Source of the DNA: Natronococcus sp. AD-5
GTDB lineage: Archaea > Halobacteriota > Halobacteria > Halobacteriales > Natrialbaceae
Reading direction: 5' to 3'
Assembly: GCF_030734285.1 (NCBI RefSeq)
Contig: NZ_CP132294.1
Location: forward strand, 4,030,001-4,094,000
DNA length: 64,000 nt
Shown: positions 49,072 through 58,219 of the stretch, in pieces
Layout of the letters: each line of letters begins with the position of its first letter
Numbering within the stretch: position 1 is the stretch's first letter
Program-made: the position numbers and the translations under genes
Notes under the pieces: model-generated
What the model was told of the DNA's origin: nothing
Databases searched by the model: none
What the model saw: only the letters and a program-made list of their open reading frames with translations

Positions 49072-50091
49072 ATGCAGATCGCGATTCTCGCCCACGAGAA
49101 GTTTCCGGGCCGGGCCAAGACGGCCCTGGGAGTGCTGCGGTACGGCGACTACGACGTCGAAGCGGTCCTCGACCGCGACAGCGCCGGCAGCCGGGTCTCC
49201 GAGTTCGTCCCCGACGTCCAGGACGCGCCGATCGTCGACGGCATGGCCGACGTCGAGGCCGACGTCGACGCCCTGCTGATCGGGATCGCACCTATCGGCG
49301 GCGGCTTCGACGAGAGCTGGCGCGACGACGTGCGAACGGCCCTCGAGAACGGCTGCGACGTCATCTCGGGACTCCACTACTTCCTGGCCGAGGACGAGGA
49401 GTTCGCCGAGTTGGCCGCCGAGAACGACTGCGAACTCTGGGACGTTCGCAAGCCGCCCGAGGATCTGACGGTGAGCCAGGGCATCGCCGGCGAGGTCGAC
49501 GCCGAGATCGTACTCACCGTCGGCACCGACTGCTCGGTCGGCAAGATGACCGTCTCGATGGAACTGGCCCGCGCCGCTCAGGAGGCCGGCTACGACGCCG
49601 CCGTCGTTCCGACGGGACAGACCGGCATCATGATCGAGGGCTGGGGCAATCCGATCGACCGCGTCGTCTCCGACTTCACCGCGGGCGCGGTCGAGGAGAT
49701 GATCGTAGAGAAGGGCGACGAGCACGACTACCTCTTCGTCGAGGGCCAGGGCAGCATCGTTCACCCGGCCTACTCGGCGGTCACCTGCGGCATCCTCCAC
49801 GGATCGATGGCCGACCAGCTGATCCTCTGTCACGAAGCGGGCAAGAAGGCGATCCACGAGTACGAATCGTTCGAACTGCCGTCGATCCAGCACTACGTCG
49901 ACCTCTACGAGGACCTCGCCGAGCCGGTCTCGGACGCCACCGTCACCGCCGGGGCGCTCAACACGTCCGGCCTCGAGGACGACGAGGAGGCGCGTCGGGC
50001 GGTCGAGGAGTACGCCGACTCGCTCGACGCGCCGGCGGCGGACGTCATCCGCTTCGGAACCGACGAACTGCTGGAGGAACTGCTCGAATGA
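49072..50091 (+). CDS. dgcN: DUF1611 family protein, DgcN-like D-glutamate N-acetyltransferase
   Basis: A 339-residue protein with an N-terminal Rossmann-like region (AILAHEKFPGRAKTALGVLRYG) and a P-loop-type C-terminal half (TVGTDCSVGKMTVSMELARAA, then VPTGQTGIMIEGWG and VEGQGSIVHPAYS). DUF1611 proteins named DgcN make N-acetyl-D-glutamate in marine bacteria. The adjacent epimerase overlaps its stop by ATGA, as in that pathway. The haloarchaeal substrate has not been shown and could be a related N-acyl amino acid. Confidence 0.8.
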   Translation: MQIAILAHEKFPGRAKTALGVLRYGDYDVEAVLDRDSAGSRVSEFVPDVQDAPIVDGMADVEADVDALLIGIAPIGGGFDESWRDDVRTALENGCDVISGLHYFLAEDEEFAELAAENDCELWDVRKPPEDLTVSQGIAGEVDAEIVLTVGTDCSVGKMTVSMELARAAQEAGYDAAVVPTGQTGIMIEGWGNPIDRVVSDFTAGAVEEMIVEKGDEHDYLFVEGQGSIVHPAYSAVTCGILHGSMADQLILCHEAGKKAIHEYESFELPSIQHYVDLYEDLAEPVSDATVTAGALNTSGLEDDEEARRAVEEYADSLDAPAADVIRFGTDELLEELLE

Positions 50092-51128
50092 CGCTCGAAA
50101 CCGAGTTCGAACGGCGAACGCTCCCGCTCGAGTTCCCGTTCGGGATCTCCCGGGGGACGTCGACCGAGGCCGAGGTCGTCTTCGTCACGATCGAGGACGC
50201 CGAGGGCGCCGTCGGCGTCGGCGGCGCCGGGCCGTCCGCCCACTACGGCGAGACGCCCGAAACCGTCGCGGCCGTCCTCCCCGACCTGCTCGCGGTCGTC
50301 GAGGAGGTCGGCGACCCGTTCCAGCTCGAGCGGATCGAACGCCGGATGCGCGAGACGGTTCGACGGAACCCGGCGGCCCGCTGCGCCGTCAGCATCGCCG
50401 TCCACGACCTCGTCGCGAAGCGACTCGACGAGCCGCTGTACCGCTACTGGGGGCTCGACCCCGCCGAGACGATCGAGACCTCGTACACCATCGGCCTCGA
50501 CGACGTCGAGACGATGCGCGAGAAGACCGAAACCGCGCTGGAGCGCGGGTACGGCACGCTGAAGGTCAAGCTCGGCACGGATCGCGACGTCGAGATCGTC
50601 CGGACGATCCGGTCGGTCGCGCCCGACGTCCGCTTGTTCGTCGACGCGAACGAGGCCTGGACGCCCCGCGAGGCCGTCGAGAAAATCGACCGCCTCGCCG
50701 AGTTCGACCTCGAATTCGTCGAACAGCCCGTCTCCGCGGAGGATCCGGAGGGGCTGCGGTTCGTCTACGAGCGCTCGCCGCTGCCGATCGCCGCCGACGA
50801 GTCCTGCATCACGCTCGAGGATATTCCGCGGATCGCCGACCGGTGCGACATCGCGAACCTGAAGCTGATGAAGTGCGGCGGCCTCCGGGAGGCAAAACGG
50901 ATGATTCACGCGGCTCGCGCCCACGGCCTCGAGGTGATGTGCGGCTGCATGAACGAGTCCAACGCCTCGATCGCGGCGGCCTGTCACCTCGCGCCGCTGA
51001 TCGACTACGCCGATCTCGACGGCTCCTTGCTGCTCGACGAGGACCCCTACGCCGGCGTGCCGATGCCGGACGGCGAGATCGATCTCGCGGGGCTCGAGCG
51101 GACGGGCACCGGCGCGGCGCTCGAGTAA
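50088..51128 (+). CDS. dgcA: Dipeptide epimerase-like enolase-superfamily enzyme (DgcA-like)
   Basis: A 346-residue member of the mandelate racemase/muconate-lactonising branch. The barrel has LKVKLGTDRDVEIV with the catalytic Lys-x-Lys, RLFVDANEAW (metal Asp), EFVEQPV (metal Glu), ADESCITLED (metal Asp) and NLKLMKCGGLREA with the second catalytic Lys. It epimerises Ala-Glu-type dipeptides or N-acetylglutamate. It starts at ATG 50088 within the dgcN stop codon (ATGA), so the two are translationally coupled. Confidence 0.88.
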   Translation: MTLETEFERRTLPLEFPFGISRGTSTEAEVVFVTIEDAEGAVGVGGAGPSAHYGETPETVAAVLPDLLAVVEEVGDPFQLERIERRMRETVRRNPAARCAVSIAVHDLVAKRLDEPLYRYWGLDPAETIETSYTIGLDDVETMREKTETALERGYGTLKVKLGTDRDVEIVRTIRSVAPDVRLFVDANEAWTPREAVEKIDRLAEFDLEFVEQPVSAEDPEGLRFVYERSPLPIAADESCITLEDIPRIADRCDIANLKLMKCGGLREAKRMIHAARAHGLEVMCGCMNESNASIAAACHLAPLIDYADLDGSLLLDEDPYAGVPMPDGEIDLAGLERTGTGAALE

Positions 51129-51231: not shown

Positions 51232-51370
51232 ATGGAGGGTTGCGCGGACGATCACCCCGTCACGGGCGCGCTCCGGGAGGACGTTCGGGAGACGCTCGAG
51301 AGTCGGTACCCTGACGCAGGCACGCTGGTCGAGGCGGGGTTCGAGCCGTACTTCGACACCCTCACCGGGT
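51232..51370 (+). pseudogene. Possible truncated gene remnant
   Basis: ATG 51232 opens a frame whose first 46 residues look like real acidic haloarchaeal protein (MEGCADDHPVTGALREDVRE, then EAGFEPYFDTLTG). Beyond this the frame runs antisense to the kinase gene and becomes Arg/Pro-rich noise up to a stop at 51630. It is preceded by GAGGGGGCGAG. It may be a gene truncated when the kinase gene was placed beside it. No family is recognised. Confidence 0.3.
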
Positions 51371-51802
51371 CTCGAGTGCGCCTACGACCCGCGCCGTCGC
51401 CTCCGCGGCCGACGCCTCGTCCGTGTCGATCTCGAGGTCGGCGTCGGGTTCGTCGAACTCCCGGTAGACGACGTGGACGCCCTGCTCGTCGATCGACTCC
51501 TCGCGGCTCCGGTTTCGCTCGAGACATGTCTCGAGGCTCGCGGTCACGAGGACGAGCCGGACGTCGCCGAGCGTGCGAAACTGCTCCTGCCACTCGCGCC
51601 GGTAGAAGGTACCGTCTACGATCCGGGTGACGTCGTCCGGGCCCTCGGCGACCCGTTCGTACAGTCGCTCGTAGGTGCGACTCGAGAAGTCGTCGGAGTG
51701 GAGCAGTCGCGTCGGCTCGTCGCGCGCCTCGAGCCGACGAGCGACGCGGGTCGCGACGGTCGTCTTGCCCGCACCGGGCGGCCCGCAGATAACGACGATC
51801 AC
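51362..51802 (-). CDS. Small P-loop kinase
   Basis: A 146-residue AAA/zeta-type kinase that starts at GTG with VICGPPGAGKTTVATRVARRL (Walker A). It has LHSDDFSSRTYERL, IVDGTFYRREWQEQF and VTASLETCLERNRSRE (lid with arginines). It resembles adenylylsulfate or gluconate kinase-like and tRNA-Sec kinase-like families. The substrate is unknown. It lies alone next to the membrane-protein triplet. Confidence 0.85.
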   Translation of the reverse strand: MIVVICGPPGAGKTTVATRVARRLEARDEPTRLLHSDDFSSRTYERLYERVAEGPDDVTRIVDGTFYRREWQEQFRTLGDVRLVLVTASLETCLERNRSREESIDEQGVHVVYREFDEPDADLEIDTDEASAAEATARVVGALETR

Positions 51803-51880: not shown

Positions 51881-52918
51881 TCAGTCCCAGTCGATCTCCT
51901 CGTCGCGGCTCGAGTCCCGGAGGATGAACGGTCCGATCGCGAGCGTCCGCTTCGCCATCGTTCCGATCCGCAGGACGAACGCGACCAGCAGGAGAAACGG
52001 AACCACGCCGATCGTCGCCGCCGTGGCGGTGATCCAGACGAGGGTATCGATCCCGAGCACCGTCCCGGCGACGGCGTCCGCGTCGAAAAAGAGCAGCATC
52101 GAAATCGCCACGACCAGCGCGGGGACCGAGACGTACATCATCGCCCGCGAGAGGTTGATCAGCTCCCACTGGAAGTACAGCGTCTTGAAGTGCTCGCGGG
52201 CGAGTCCGAACAGTTTCAGCGCCTGGAGCAACTCGTCGTGGGCCTCGCTGGCCTCGTCGTCGAAGGAGTCGGCGTGGGCGTTCCGGATCCGGCGAGCGCG
52301 GAAGATCTTCCAGGAGTAGTTGTAATCAAGCGCCGTCTTGACGACGTCGTAGGTGCCGAACTGGGCGTCGTCTAGGTCGTCGCGGATCGAACCGGCGTGG
52401 GTCGTGAGGTTGTCGACGAAGTCGTCGACCCGTTCTTGGAACTCCTCGTCGCGGCTGTCGGCGACGGCGTCGCGAAACTCGACCGCCCGGCTCTGGGAGG
52501 CGGCGATGATCGCCTGCATGAACGACGCCGGCTCCGGCGGGCTGATCGGCGCGTCGATCACGTCCTCGACGTCGTCGTGGAACTGGAGCGACCCGTCCAG
52601 GCGATCGCGCTGGTCGTTGACGGCTCCCAGTTCCTGGGAGAGCACGAGCTGATTGATCGTCAGGACGAGCGTGACGCCGGTGATGATGGCGGTCACGAGC
52701 GCCTGGAAGAGGAAGTGGACCGGCTCCTTCACGGCCATGAGCCCTCGCAGCGAGACGGGGCTCAGTTCGCTGACGAGCAGCAGGCCGACGAAGACGAACG
52801 CTACGAGGAGCGCGGTGACGAGCCACCGGTTCGCGTTGAGGAGGAACCACAGCTTCCACCCCGGATCTTTGCTCCGCTCGGCCATCGTGTCGTCGGGCTG
52901 CGAACCGTCGCTGCTCAT
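51881..52918 (-). CDS. Four-helix membrane protein of a haloarchaeal triplet family, copy A
   Basis: A 345-residue protein. Two helices (about 30-50 and 72-95) end in the motif TINQLVLSQELGAVNDQRDRL. A long helical soluble part (about 100-245) has SPPEPASF and AQFGTYDVVKTALDYNYSWKI. Then come AREHFKTLYFQWELINLSRA and two more helices (about 258-278 and 290-312) with a basic end RTLAIGPFILR. The family is not recognised. Copy B (53140) and copy C (54195) follow next to it, and A and B are divergent. Confidence 0.85.
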   Translation of the reverse strand: MSSDGSQPDDTMAERSKDPGWKLWFLLNANRWLVTALLVAFVFVGLLLVSELSPVSLRGLMAVKEPVHFLFQALVTAIITGVTLVLTINQLVLSQELGAVNDQRDRLDGSLQFHDDVEDVIDAPISPPEPASFMQAIIAASQSRAVEFRDAVADSRDEEFQERVDDFVDNLTTHAGSIRDDLDDAQFGTYDVVKTALDYNYSWKIFRARRIRNAHADSFDDEASEAHDELLQALKLFGLAREHFKTLYFQWELINLSRAMMYVSVPALVVAISMLLFFDADAVAGTVLGIDTLVWITATAATIGVVPFLLLVAFVLRIGTMAKRTLAIGPFILRDSSRDEEIDWD

Positions 52919-53139
52919 CGGTCGTTGCGGTACGGTGTCGACCCGGAAATAGCCACGGCTGGCGGTCGCTCCCGGACGGTATCCGATCGGGACGGATCGG
53001 CGGCCCCGTTCTTCGGCTCCTCGTCCCGATTCCCGTTCTCGGGGTCGCGACCGACGATAGACTCGTCGGCGAGGATTCAGCGGATCAGTGATTCGCAAAC
53101 GAAAACCCTTGTACGGGTGCTCTGGTAGAGTATCGCTGT

Positions 53140-54186
53140 ATGACCGAGTCCGGTTGGAGCGACGAGACGGCTAACACCATCGAAGACCGCGTTCGCGGCG
53201 GTCGTCTGGCGGTGTGGTTCCTGGTTCGAGGGAACCGGCTGACCGTCGCCGGTGCGATGGTGGTGGTTGCGTACGCGATACTGATCGCCCTCGGCGAGTT
53301 CGGTCCGGGGTCCATCTCGAAACTCTTCGAACCCGATCCGGTCTTCGCGCTGTTCACGCCGATCATCATCGGCATCATCATGGGCGTCAGTCTGGTCCTG
53401 ACGTTCAACCAGCTCGTACTCTCCCAGGAACTGGGACCCGTCGGCGACCAGCGCGAGCGGATGGGCGATGCGATGGACTTCCGCCGGGACGTCGAGGAGG
53501 CCGTCGGCAGAGAAACCAGCCCGCCGGAGCCGTCGACGTTTCTGCACGGTCTCGTCGAGAAGACCGGCGAGCACGCTACCGAGATCCTCGAGCGACTCGA
53601 AACCGAGTCCGACCTCGACGACGCCGCTCGATCGGACGTGACCGCGTACGCCGAAGGGATCCGCGACGACGCCCGGCGGGTCGCCGACGACCTCGAAGGA
53701 AAGCAGTTCGGAACGTTCGACGTCGTGTCGGCGGCCCTCGAGTACAACTACTCCTGGAAGATCTACACCGGACGGCGCGTTCGAAACCGCCACGCGGACG
53801 TCCTCTCGGAGGGGACCGTCGGGGCGATCAACAGACTGCTCGAGGACCTCGAGTTCTTCGGGCCGGCTCGCGAGCACTTCAAGACGCTGTACTTCCGCTG
53901 GGAGATCATCAACATCTCGCGGGCGCTAGTGCTCGTCTCCCTGCCCGCGCTGGCGGTCGCCGCCTACATGATCCTGGTCTTCGAGACGGGCGACGTCGCC
54001 GGTTCGGTCGCCGGAATCGACAGCGGGTTGCTCGTCGTCGGCCTCGCGTTCGCGATCGGCGTGACGCCGTTTTCGATCTTCCTCTCGTACATCCTCCGGA
54101 TCGTCACCGTCGCGAAGTGGACGCTCGCGATCGGGCCGTTCATCCTGCGGGAGACCGACCGCGGCTCCGATATCGAGTGGGAGTAA
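53140..54186 (+). CDS. Four-helix membrane protein of the triplet family, copy B
   Basis: A 348-residue protein, closest to copy A. It has the same TFNQLVLSQELGPVGDQRERM after helix 2, SPPEPSTF, KQFGTFDVVSAALEYNYSWKI, AREHFKTLYFRWEIINISRA and WTLAIGPFILR at the end. The segments most alike between A and B are those next to membranes, while the middle helices differ. It is divergent from A (221 bases between) and convergent with C (8 bases between). No enzyme motif is visible. Confidence 0.85.
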   Translation: MTESGWSDETANTIEDRVRGGRLAVWFLVRGNRLTVAGAMVVVAYAILIALGEFGPGSISKLFEPDPVFALFTPIIIGIIMGVSLVLTFNQLVLSQELGPVGDQRERMGDAMDFRRDVEEAVGRETSPPEPSTFLHGLVEKTGEHATEILERLETESDLDDAARSDVTAYAEGIRDDARRVADDLEGKQFGTFDVVSAALEYNYSWKIYTGRRVRNRHADVLSEGTVGAINRLLEDLEFFGPAREHFKTLYFRWEIINISRALVLVSLPALAVAAYMILVFETGDVAGSVAGIDSGLLVVGLAFAIGVTPFSIFLSYILRIVTVAKWTLAIGPFILRETDRGSDIEWE

Positions 54187-54194
54187 CGCGACCG

Positions 54195-55250
54195 TTACTC
54201 GTCGCCCTCGTCGTACGAGACGTCGAACGGTCCGGCTTCGGGATCCTTCTGCGGTAACATCGGACCGACCGAGGCCGTCCGCCGGGCTACGGTCGCGGTT
54301 CGGAGGATGTAGGCCGCGAGCAGCGCGAGAGGCGAGACGACGACGGCGACGAGCGCGCTAACGACGTAGGGCAAGAGCGCGACGCTGATGTTCGGCCCGC
54401 CGAAATCCGCGTAGATGAACCCGATGAGCATCGCCGAGATGATCGCCGGGACGCCCGCGTAGATCGTCAGCTGGGAGAACTGCGTCAGCTCGCGCTGCAG
54501 GTACGTCGTCTTGAAGTGTTCGCGAGCGACGTTGAACAGCTGCAACGCGTCGATCAACTCGTCGAACGCTGCGAGCGTCTCGTCGGAGAGGGAGTCGCGC
54601 CGACTCCCCCGGAGGTGTCTGGCGGCGTACACCTGCCAGGCGTCGTCGTACCCGATCGCCGCCGAAAGGGCCGTGAACGTGCCGAACCTCGTGCGTTCTA
54701 GGGTATCTTCGACCCGTCCGGTGCTCTCGCCGACGGTGTTTGCGTACTTCGCTACCAGTTCGGCGAACTCGCCGCCCTCGTTGTCCGCGACGGTCTCGGC
54801 GAGGGCGTGGGCCCGGTAGTGAATCGTCTCGACGAGGAGTTCGAGCAATCCCGTCGGCGACGCCGGGGCCGCCGGAACGGTCGCCTCCCCCTCGACGTCT
54901 CGGCGAAACTCCATGACGCCCTCGAGTTGATCGCGGGCTTCGCCGGCCGCGGCGAACTCGCGGGAGAGGATGAGCTGGTTGATCGACACAACGAGGGTGA
55001 CGAGCGAGAAGGTGCCCGCGATCATCCCGCCGGCCAGACGGGTGGTCGAGTCGTCGTTCACGAAGGCGATGATGCCGACCTCGTTCAGGAAGAGAAAGAG
55101 AACGAAGACGGCGACAGACAGGAGGGTAGCGATGAGGACGCGATTTCCGTCGACCAGCACCCACTCCCAGAGCCGGGTCAACGAGTTCGTTCGCTGTCCG
55201 ATTTCGGTTCCGTGTGATTCGAGCGTCTCGTCGACCTCGGACGGTTCCAT
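54195..55250 (-). CDS. Four-helix membrane protein of the triplet family, copy C
   Basis: A 351-residue protein, the most divergent of the three. It keeps SINQLILSREFAAAGEARDQL, MEFRRDVEGE, TRFGTFTALSAAIGYDDAW, AREHFKTTYLQRELTQFS and the terminal ILRTATVARRTASVGPML. The YNYSWK block is reduced to YDDAWQ. The order of two helices, a large middle domain and two helices is unchanged, so all three probably have the same fold and came from duplication. Confidence 0.83.
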   Translation of the reverse strand: MEPSEVDETLESHGTEIGQRTNSLTRLWEWVLVDGNRVLIATLLSVAVFVLFLFLNEVGIIAFVNDDSTTRLAGGMIAGTFSLVTLVVSINQLILSREFAAAGEARDQLEGVMEFRRDVEGEATVPAAPASPTGLLELLVETIHYRAHALAETVADNEGGEFAELVAKYANTVGESTGRVEDTLERTRFGTFTALSAAIGYDDAWQVYAARHLRGSRRDSLSDETLAAFDELIDALQLFNVAREHFKTTYLQRELTQFSQLTIYAGVPAIISAMLIGFIYADFGGPNISVALLPYVVSALVAVVVSPLALLAAYILRTATVARRTASVGPMLPQKDPEAGPFDVSYDEGDE

Positions 55251-55522: not shown

Positions 55523-56017
55523 ATGACTCAGTCACCACTGAGTCGTCGTCGCGTGCTCGGCGCGCTCGGCGCCGGCGGCGCGGGCCTGTTCGCAGGTTGT
55601 AACGACGTCAGCGACGGCGGCGAACCCAAGTACGAAGCGGGCGAGGTCACCGATCTCGAGGCGAGCAACCGATCGGCCGAAAACGTGACCGCGGCGGAAG
55701 CGCTCGCCGAGCAAGAGGCAAACGAGGGGGTTACCGCGCTCGACACGCTCACGATCCGGAACCACGAGTTCGTGCTCGAGGATAGCTTCCACGGACCGAC
55801 GGTCCAGGGTACCGTAGCGAACACGGGCGAGGATCGGATCGAACTCGTCGAGGTTCGGGTTCGCGTCTTCAACGAAAGCGGGAATCAGATCGGCCGTTAC
55901 CTCGACGTAACCGGCGACTTACCACCGAATTCGACCTGGGAGTTCCAGGTCGTCCTCCTCGAATTGACGACCGACATCGCCGAGTACGACATCGCCGTCC
56001 TCGGTACGCCGTCGTGA
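55523..56017 (+). CDS. Tat-exported lipoprotein with FxLYD-like domain
   Basis: A 164-residue lipoprotein. SRRRVLGALGAGGAGLFAGC gives a twin-arginine signal and a lipobox (LFAGC), so it is anchored by lipid after Tat export. The mature part has GTVANTGEDRIELVEVRVRVFNESGNQIG and PPNSTWEFQVVL, the FxLYD beta-sandwich. A ligand or partner is unknown. Upstream bases 55251-55522 hold no supported gene. Confidence 0.85.
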   Translation: MTQSPLSRRRVLGALGAGGAGLFAGCNDVSDGGEPKYEAGEVTDLEASNRSAENVTAAEALAEQEANEGVTALDTLTIRNHEFVLEDSFHGPTVQGTVANTGEDRIELVEVRVRVFNESGNQIGRYLDVTGDLPPNSTWEFQVVLLELTTDIAEYDIAVLGTPS

Positions 56018-56044: not shown

Positions 56045-56392
56045 TTACGAGCCACCCCCGTCGACGAGTTCGTCCGAGACCGCGTCGTAGACCGCTTCGA
56101 TATCTCCGTTCACGGTGTAGGCCGGCCGTCCCTTTCCCGTCGGTGAGCGTTCGTCCGGCTGATACTCATCGACGATCCCCTCGGCCTCGAGACGGTAGAG
56201 CGAACGCATGACGTCGGCTTCGGTGATCGTCCCGACAACCTCCGCGTCGACGTCGGCCAACTGTGCTCGGCACGCACGCCGAATCTCGTGCGTCTGGGCC
56301 GGGAGTTCCTTCTCGCGATCCGCCTCGGCCACGGCACACAGCACCACCTGTTCGGTCAACGAAAGCGATTCGATGTCTGACTCGGCCACCAT
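56045..56392 (-). CDS. Orphan winged-helix protein resembling the Orc1/Cdc6 C-terminal domain
   Basis: A 115-residue protein: LSLTEQVVLCAVAEADREKE, then THEIRRACRAQL, then ADVMRSLYRLEAEGIVDEYQPDERSPTGKGRP and YTV. The helix-turn-helix with a wing, and an order like the DNA-binding tail of Orc1/Cdc6, suggest a duplex-DNA-binding role. No AAA+ domain is attached. It could also be a MarR/PadR-like regulator. ATG 56392 (MVAESDIES) is used. Confidence 0.75.
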   Translation of the reverse strand: MVAESDIESLSLTEQVVLCAVAEADREKELPAQTHEIRRACRAQLADVDAEVVGTITEADVMRSLYRLEAEGIVDEYQPDERSPTGKGRPAYTVNGDIEAVYDAVSDELVDGGGS

Positions 56393-56507
56393 AGGTAACC
56401 GTACCACGCCCTAGGTGGTAGCCGTTCCCCTCGGTTGATTCTCGTGAAAATTCGGATCGGGAACCGATGTAACGGCGGCGCGGCGTCCGGCCCGTCGACG
56501 CGTCGCG

Positions 56508-57320
56508 CTACGCGTTTTCCTCTTCCTGGAGCTCCTCGAGTTCGGCGTCGATCTCGTCGTCGTCGACCTCGGCCTCGAGCTCCTCGATCTCGGACTCGTC
56601 GACCTCCTCTTCCGGCTCGGCGCCGCCGCCGACCTCCGATTTGAGCGTCTCGAGTTCGGCCTCGACGCCGCTGTCGGTCGAGATCTCCTCGAGTTCGCGG
56701 TCGATCTGGTCCTTGTCGGAGATGACGTCCTCGAAGGCGCCCGTCTCGTGTAGTTCGTCGAGCGCGGCGGCGCGGGCCTCCATGTCCTCGGTCTGCTCTT
56801 CGGCGCGTTCGATGGCGCGGCCGACGTCCTCGAACTCCTCGCCGGTGGCCGTCATCGCCTCCGACACCGTCGAACTCGCCTCGGCGGCCTCGTAGCGGGC
56901 CTTCATCGTCTCCTTCTTGGTGCGGAACTCCTCGATCCGGTTTTGCAGTTCGTCTTTCTGCTCGATGAGCCGGTCCTGCTGGCTCTGGAGCTCCGAAACC
57001 TGGCGCTCTAGGTCCTCGATCTGGTTCATCTTCGTCTTCTTCTTTTCGAGGGCGCGTCGCGCCAGGTCCTCCCGGTCCTGCTGGACGGCCGTGCGGGCCT
57101 GCTCGTTGTGTTTCTCGACGTTCTCCTCGAGGCGCTTTTTCTGCATCTCGAGGCGCTTCTTCTGGGTGGTGAGGTCGGCGATCCCGCGTTTGACCTGCTG
57201 CAGCTGGTCGCGCATCTGCTCGTAGGAGTAATCCAGCGTCTCGGTCGGGTCCTCGGCCCGGTTGAGCAGCGAGTTGATTTTCGATCGGATGACGTAGGAG
57301 GTCCGAGAGAGGATGCCCAT
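56508..57320 (-). CDS. pspA: PspA/IM30 family protein
   Basis: A 270-residue ESCRT-III-like protein. MGILSRTSYVIRSKINSLLN is the amphipathic membrane-binding start, followed by YSYEQMRDQLQQVKRGIADL and a very long helical coiled coil to about residue 205. A C-terminal tail rich in Glu and Asp follows. PspA-type proteins support membrane integrity under stress; in haloarchaea they respond to salt or membrane damage. It is monocistronic on this strand. Confidence 0.93.
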   Translation of the reverse strand: MGILSRTSYVIRSKINSLLNRAEDPTETLDYSYEQMRDQLQQVKRGIADLTTQKKRLEMQKKRLEENVEKHNEQARTAVQQDREDLARRALEKKKTKMNQIEDLERQVSELQSQQDRLIEQKDELQNRIEEFRTKKETMKARYEAAEASSTVSEAMTATGEEFEDVGRAIERAEEQTEDMEARAAALDELHETGAFEDVISDKDQIDRELEEISTDSGVEAELETLKSEVGGGAEPEEEVDESEIEELEAEVDDDEIDAELEELQEEENA

Positions 57321-57604: not shown

Positions 57605-58219
57605 ATGGCCGACGTTCTGATACCCGGCGGACGCGACGTTCGCGCTACGCTAGACGAACCCGAGATCGGGGTGACGGACGCCGTCGTGATCGCCTGTCCG
57701 CCCCATCCCCAGCACGGCGGCTCGCGCACGGACCAACGGTTGGTCGCCGTGAGCGAGGCCCTCTGCGAGGCCGGCATCGCCTGTCTCCGGTTCGACTACG
57801 GCGAGTGGGACGACGGCTACGGCGAGCGCGAAGACGTCCGGAACGCGATCCGATGGGCAGCCGACCGGGACGGTACGGAAACGGTCGGCGTCTTCGGCTA
57901 CAGCTTCGGGGCGTCGCAGGCGCTGCTCGCGTCGGCGACCGCCGATCGGCCGGTCGCGGGCGTCGCCGCCCTCGCACCGACGGCGAGACTCGGAGAGGAT
58001 CTGGACGCCGTCGCGGCGCTCTCGCGACTCGAATCGCCGGCGTTGATACTCCACGGCGAGCGCGATACGACCGTCGACTGGGAAGCGGTCGTCGAACGCG
58101 CGCGCGAGCGAGGCGACGACGTGGTGTCGCTGCCGGCCGATCACTTCTTCCTCGGGACGCGCGACGAGATCGCGACGGCCGTCGTCGATTTCTTCGAGCA
58201 ACTGTTCGTGCGACCGTAA
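57605..58219 (+). CDS. Alpha/beta hydrolase (dienelactone hydrolase-like)
   Basis: A 204-residue hydrolase. CPPHPQHGGSRTDQRLVAVSEAL marks the oxyanion region, GVFGYSFGASQALLAS holds the nucleophile Ser, LILHGERDTTVDW the Asp and LPADHFFLGTRDE the His, a complete catalytic triad. It has no signal peptide. The ester or thioester substrate is unknown. The 391 bases after it (58220-58610) are AT-richer and contain no gene that I accept. Confidence 0.88.
   Translation: MADVLIPGGRDVRATLDEPEIGVTDAVVIACPPHPQHGGSRTDQRLVAVSEALCEAGIACLRFDYGEWDDGYGEREDVRNAIRWAADRDGTETVGVFGYSFGASQALLASATADRPVAGVAALAPTARLGEDLDAVAALSRLESPALILHGERDTTVDWEAVVERARERGDDVVSLPADHFFLGTRDEIATAVVDFFEQLFVRP

Follow-up and report, generated by a model that had tools for sequence, protein, structure and literature searches.

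The window, that is, the whole 64,000-nucleotide stretch of the Natronococcus sp. AD-5 genome (Natrialbaceae) that was analyzed, encodes an array of three adjacent, related membrane proteins (A, B, and C) close to a homolog of PspA, a cytoplasmic, membrane-binding, ESCRT-III-like protein of membrane maintenance and stress. The features of the locus are as follows.

49072..51128, plus strand: DUF1611 protein and enolase-superfamily epimerase, a conserved flank of the pspA block
51362..51802, minus strand: gene for a P-loop kinase-like protein, flanking the array on its other side (AAA_33, E 1e-14)
51881..52918, minus strand: copy A, ORF of a 345-aa four-helix membrane protein, ATG at 52918
52919..53139, between A and B: 221-base divergent region by coordinates, presumed to hold promoters
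53140..54186, plus strand: copy B, ORF of 348 aa
54195..55250, minus strand: copy C, ORF of 351 aa, convergent with B
55523..56017, plus strand: predicted lipoprotein, FxLYD-like from its sequence, divergent from C; here mainly in Natrialbaceae
56045..56407, minus strand: winged-helix protein with a weak Cdc6_C match, in Natrialbaceae loci only (cluster 23)
56508..57320, minus strand: PspA/IM30 homolog of 270 aa, the conserved neighbor of the family (PF04012, E 2e-31)
57605..58219, plus strand: alpha/beta hydrolase, divergent from pspA, in the conserved block

All three copies are intact open reading frames, with 8 bases between B and C, and re-derivation of the coordinates confirmed the positions, strands, and 221- and 8-base gaps given in the initial annotation. 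Nearly full-length BLASTP alignments connect A with B (44% identity, E 1e-101), A with C (32%, E 1e-62), and B with C (34%, E 1e-49); with a similarity so far above chance, the sequences are beyond doubt those of paralogs, as had been proposed. The motifs reported as common to the three hold in part: AREHFKT is present in A, B, and C, but INQLxLSxE reads FNQLVLSQE in B, and QFGT(Y/F) reads RFGTF in C. The adjacency of three paralogs is likewise real, but the genome holds eight copies of the family rather than three, and pspA, 1.3 kb past C with the lipoprotein and winged-helix genes in between, had been overlooked. This pspA, the only PF04012 match in the genome, is the most informative neighbor of the array. 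Lipoproteins of the same cluster (cluster 7) adjoin the family in nine loci from two GTDB families. The DUF1611 and epimerase genes (49072-51128) overlap by 4 bases, a pair that resembles DgcN/DgcA.

Family Assignment and Predicted Topology

No fitting profile was found for A, B, or C in Pfam, NCBIfam, PADLOC, or PDB, nor did a sequence search of PHROGs give any matches above chance level, in agreement with the earlier statement that these proteins belong to no known family. The Foldseek comparison of AlphaFold models proposed in the initial annotation was run for B and C and returned nothing at E ≤ 0.001. Each of A, B, and C is predicted to have four hydrophobic segments, two on either side of a middle of ~150 residues, and the models of B (pLDDT 72, pTM 0.60) and C (pLDDT 76, pTM 0.69), both of middling confidence, are all-helical; this bears out the previously described plan, in which two pairs of helices flank a large helical middle. 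This ~150-residue helical domain is conserved in the family, and helices 2 and 3 of the C model continue as single helices of ~60 residues, far past the membrane.

Basic residues across 100 members number, per protein, 2.7 before helix 1, 1.9 after helix 2, 2.3 before helix 3, and 2.8 after helix 4, compared with at most 0.7 at the remaining four helix ends, which lie in the two short loops. Because basic residues are dense at the inner helix ends, both termini and the middle helical domain are predicted to be cytoplasmic, and we treat this placement as supporting evidence. Strongly conserved residues are mostly found at the inner face and in the helical domain, with no obvious pore motif; Pro269, Pro310, and Arg320, in or adjoining helices 3 and 4, are invariant or nearly so.

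Bestrophins likewise have two pairs of helices and a large helical domain between them, and a resemblance to them had been suggested. However, their profile (PF01062) gave no hmmscan match to A, B, or C at E ≤ 10 or to 47 family members at E ≤ 0.1; a search for it among relatives matched neither these nor the controls and so says nothing about absence. A weak Foldseek match of a family model to 6ivm, which may be a bestrophin structure, had an E value of 0.73 and an rmsd of 15.6 and is not meaningful. Membership of the bestrophins is thus unsupported by the profile, over 47 members, and the two models of middling confidence (pLDDT 72 and 76) gave no significant fold match.

Distribution of the Family and Age of the Array

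The family is present in 126 of 146 genomes of the order to which Natronococcus belongs, or 111 of the 122 of good quality, with up to 13 copies per genome. In a sample of the phylum it was limited to this order, apart from a single copy that the low-GC genome G020 most likely received through horizontal transfer. Copies occur on 65-66 of 72,556 plasmids, every record among the matches listed being haloarchaeal and nearly all of them annotated as hypothetical proteins. The phage collections contain no record with a family member and none was confirmed on IMG/VR viral contigs, and nothing thus points to a viral gene; the best reading is that the family is specific to haloarchaea. The low-GC copy outside the order (L030:9037-10086, minus strand) is situated among IS200/IS605-type transposon genes, with no pspA nearby.

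A synteny survey, also proposed in the initial annotation, revealed a conserved array in the Natrialbaceae: the same place is mostly occupied by three to five paralogs, arranged A(-), [D(-)], [E(-)], B(+), C(-), although a given genome may lack some of them. Orthologs of A, B, and C in other genera share ~60-82% identity and are arranged identically, strands included. A tree built from 100 members separates A, B, C, D, and E into clades of their own, common to several genera of one family; the A clade includes orthologs at L009, L011, L014, L015, L037, L040, and L041, B forms its own clade (orthologs at 70-82% identity), and the C clade, supported at 0.999, extends to a gene of another GTDB family, L050, also at the pspA locus. 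As orthologs are ~60-82% identical but paralogs only 32-44%, the array is older than these genera, and since its layout is kept across them with separate A-E clades, the alternating orientation is old; the suggested local duplication with inversion, if understood as a recent event, does not agree with this.

Linkage to pspA

The main new result of this analysis is the context of the family at the pspA locus, and the array in the window is the same locus as that of the pspA-linked family genes elsewhere. Among ~60 loci surveyed, for which genes were predicted with a simple gene caller that missed some (e.g., one in L097, later recovered), pspA is directly upstream of a family gene on the same strand in 17, with gaps of 25-147 bases. 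It adjoins a family gene in five GTDB families and lies at most five genes away in seven of eight. Of 131 genomes bearing pspA, at least 71 carry a family gene no more than 8 kb from it, a proximity that random placement would give in ~2%, and of 30 family genes at most 250 bases from pspA, 25 are downstream on the same strand. Of 15 Haloferax-like genomes (genus assigned by plasmid similarity), 14 have a family gene, in all 14 directly downstream of pspA with a gap of 121-207 bases. The neighbor on the far side varies (epimerase, ThrRS, USP, HPP) and pspA is constant, the pair being kept even where one or both flanks have changed (L042, L044, L057, and L065).

The linkage is not absolute. Many copies are located away from pspA, and among the 122 good-quality genomes of the order 10 encode pspA but no family member and 4 show the opposite pattern; presence is loosely correlated, and strict co-occurrence is rejected. 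Since other genes separate the array from pspA in the Natrialbaceae, including the window, the two do not share an operon there. The pspA locus also lies inside a block (hydrolase, PyrG, epimerase) that is conserved in many genomes over its whole length from pyrG to the epimerase, so that the linkage may in part reflect inherited synteny.

LiaI/LiaF-like membrane proteins were observed beside pspA in two Haloferax-like genomes (L113:6052-6489 and L119:1498-1935, both minus strand). In the one Haloferax-like genome without a family gene, the slot is occupied by such a protein (PF18917, E 4e-5, below the cut-off), a single case and on the opposite strand; in a related genome the LiaI/LiaF-like protein and a family gene stand side by side. 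The LiaI/LiaF family has been linked to Psp systems (PMC11237479).

A second, operon-like context involves DUF4177. Genes for it occur beside the family (L028, L032, L050, L070-L073, L076, L087, and L089), mostly directly upstream and overlapping; in 11 cases, in which the family copies form one clade, the DUF4177 gene immediately precedes the family gene on the same strand with an overlap of 4-11 bases, which suggests translational coupling and possibly a second membrane module. TM_HPP, universal stress protein, and DUF389 (TIGR00341) genes also recur near the family (L027, L033, L047, L101, and L102), possibly as a wider stress island.

Candidate Functions and Comparison with Known Systems

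Two properties of a Psp partner are found in this family: a conserved neighborhood shared with pspA and, by prediction, integration into the membrane with part of the protein in the cytoplasm. We give an even chance to the proposal that the family is a haloarchaea-specific integral membrane partner of PspA. As PspA is cytoplasmic and membrane-binding, and the middle domain is predicted to face inward, the two could be in contact; the domain, carried on rigid continuations of helices 2 and 3, would then recruit, dock, or regulate PspA when ion or osmotic stress harms the membrane. The paralogs A-E here, and others elsewhere, may be versions for different conditions or partners, and perhaps form mixed complexes. 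Tentatively, and with rather more doubt than belief, one might go on to propose that haloarchaea evolved their own PspA receptor, unrelated to PspB, PspC, or LiaF, which multiplied, some copies together with DUF4177, into a modular, salt-tuned system of membrane repair. A family without a profile match in the libraries searched, found in about nine-tenths of haloarchaeal genomes and often beside pspA, is a concrete candidate for such a partner, and in Haloferax, for which genetic methods are established, the gene is mostly present as a single copy.

We consider it unlikely that the proteins are instead ion or osmolyte channels or osmotic-release valves, similar to bestrophin, MotA, or Tweety in shape only and adjacent to pspA because both serve salt stress; the two-plus-two plan with its large helical middle in the models, the conserved prolines and arginine of helices 3 and 4, and the TM_HPP and SLC13 genes among recurrent neighbors are consistent with this, but no Pfam channel family scored above its cut-off in 47 members, Foldseek found no significant match for either model, and conservation centers on the inner face and the helical domain rather than a pore. 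The 11 cases with an overlapping DUF4177 gene, and several plasmid copies situated among regulators, would suit a sensor of membrane stress for which the partner gene is the signaling route, be it PspA in one clade, the DUF4177 protein in another, or others elsewhere, but as no signaling domain was detected in family members we find this quite improbable. We are equally disinclined to see general membrane proteins that have no relation to PspA and are linked to it through an old gene block only, for which the conserved block and loosely correlated presence might speak, in view of the closely spaced same-strand pairs in several GTDB families and all 14 Haloferax-like genomes, and of the survival of the pair where flanks change.

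Among known systems, MotA/TolQ/ExbB (PF01618) likewise arrange two plus two helices about a cytoplasmic domain, and prolines in the third and fourth helices of MotA are conserved, as in this family; they differ in that the family gave no profile or significant fold match to them and no MotB-like neighbor was seen. The bacterial Psp partners PspB, PspC, LiaI/LiaF, and PspM are also small integral membrane proteins encoded with PspA; these families and Toastrack had no sequence match in 47 family members. LiaI-LiaF-TM has four helices too (PMC11237479), and haloarchaeal neighbors do not figure in the passages of that paper that were examined (Ravi et al. 2024). Prior art consists of a short mention of Hvo2637, a transmembrane protein encoded downstream of pspA in Hfx. 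volcanii, with weak domain guesses of bPH_4 and EphA2_TM (Popp et al. 2022, PMC9239133); the passages on Hvo2637 in that paper concern one species and do not describe a family, paralogs, distribution, or synteny, and a literature search returned no further paper naming it. In the same species PspA responds to salinity (cited in PMC9239133 and PMC3235422), and Hvo2637, a putative family member by its position, occupies the same place downstream of pspA as the family gene in the 14 Haloferax-like genomes.
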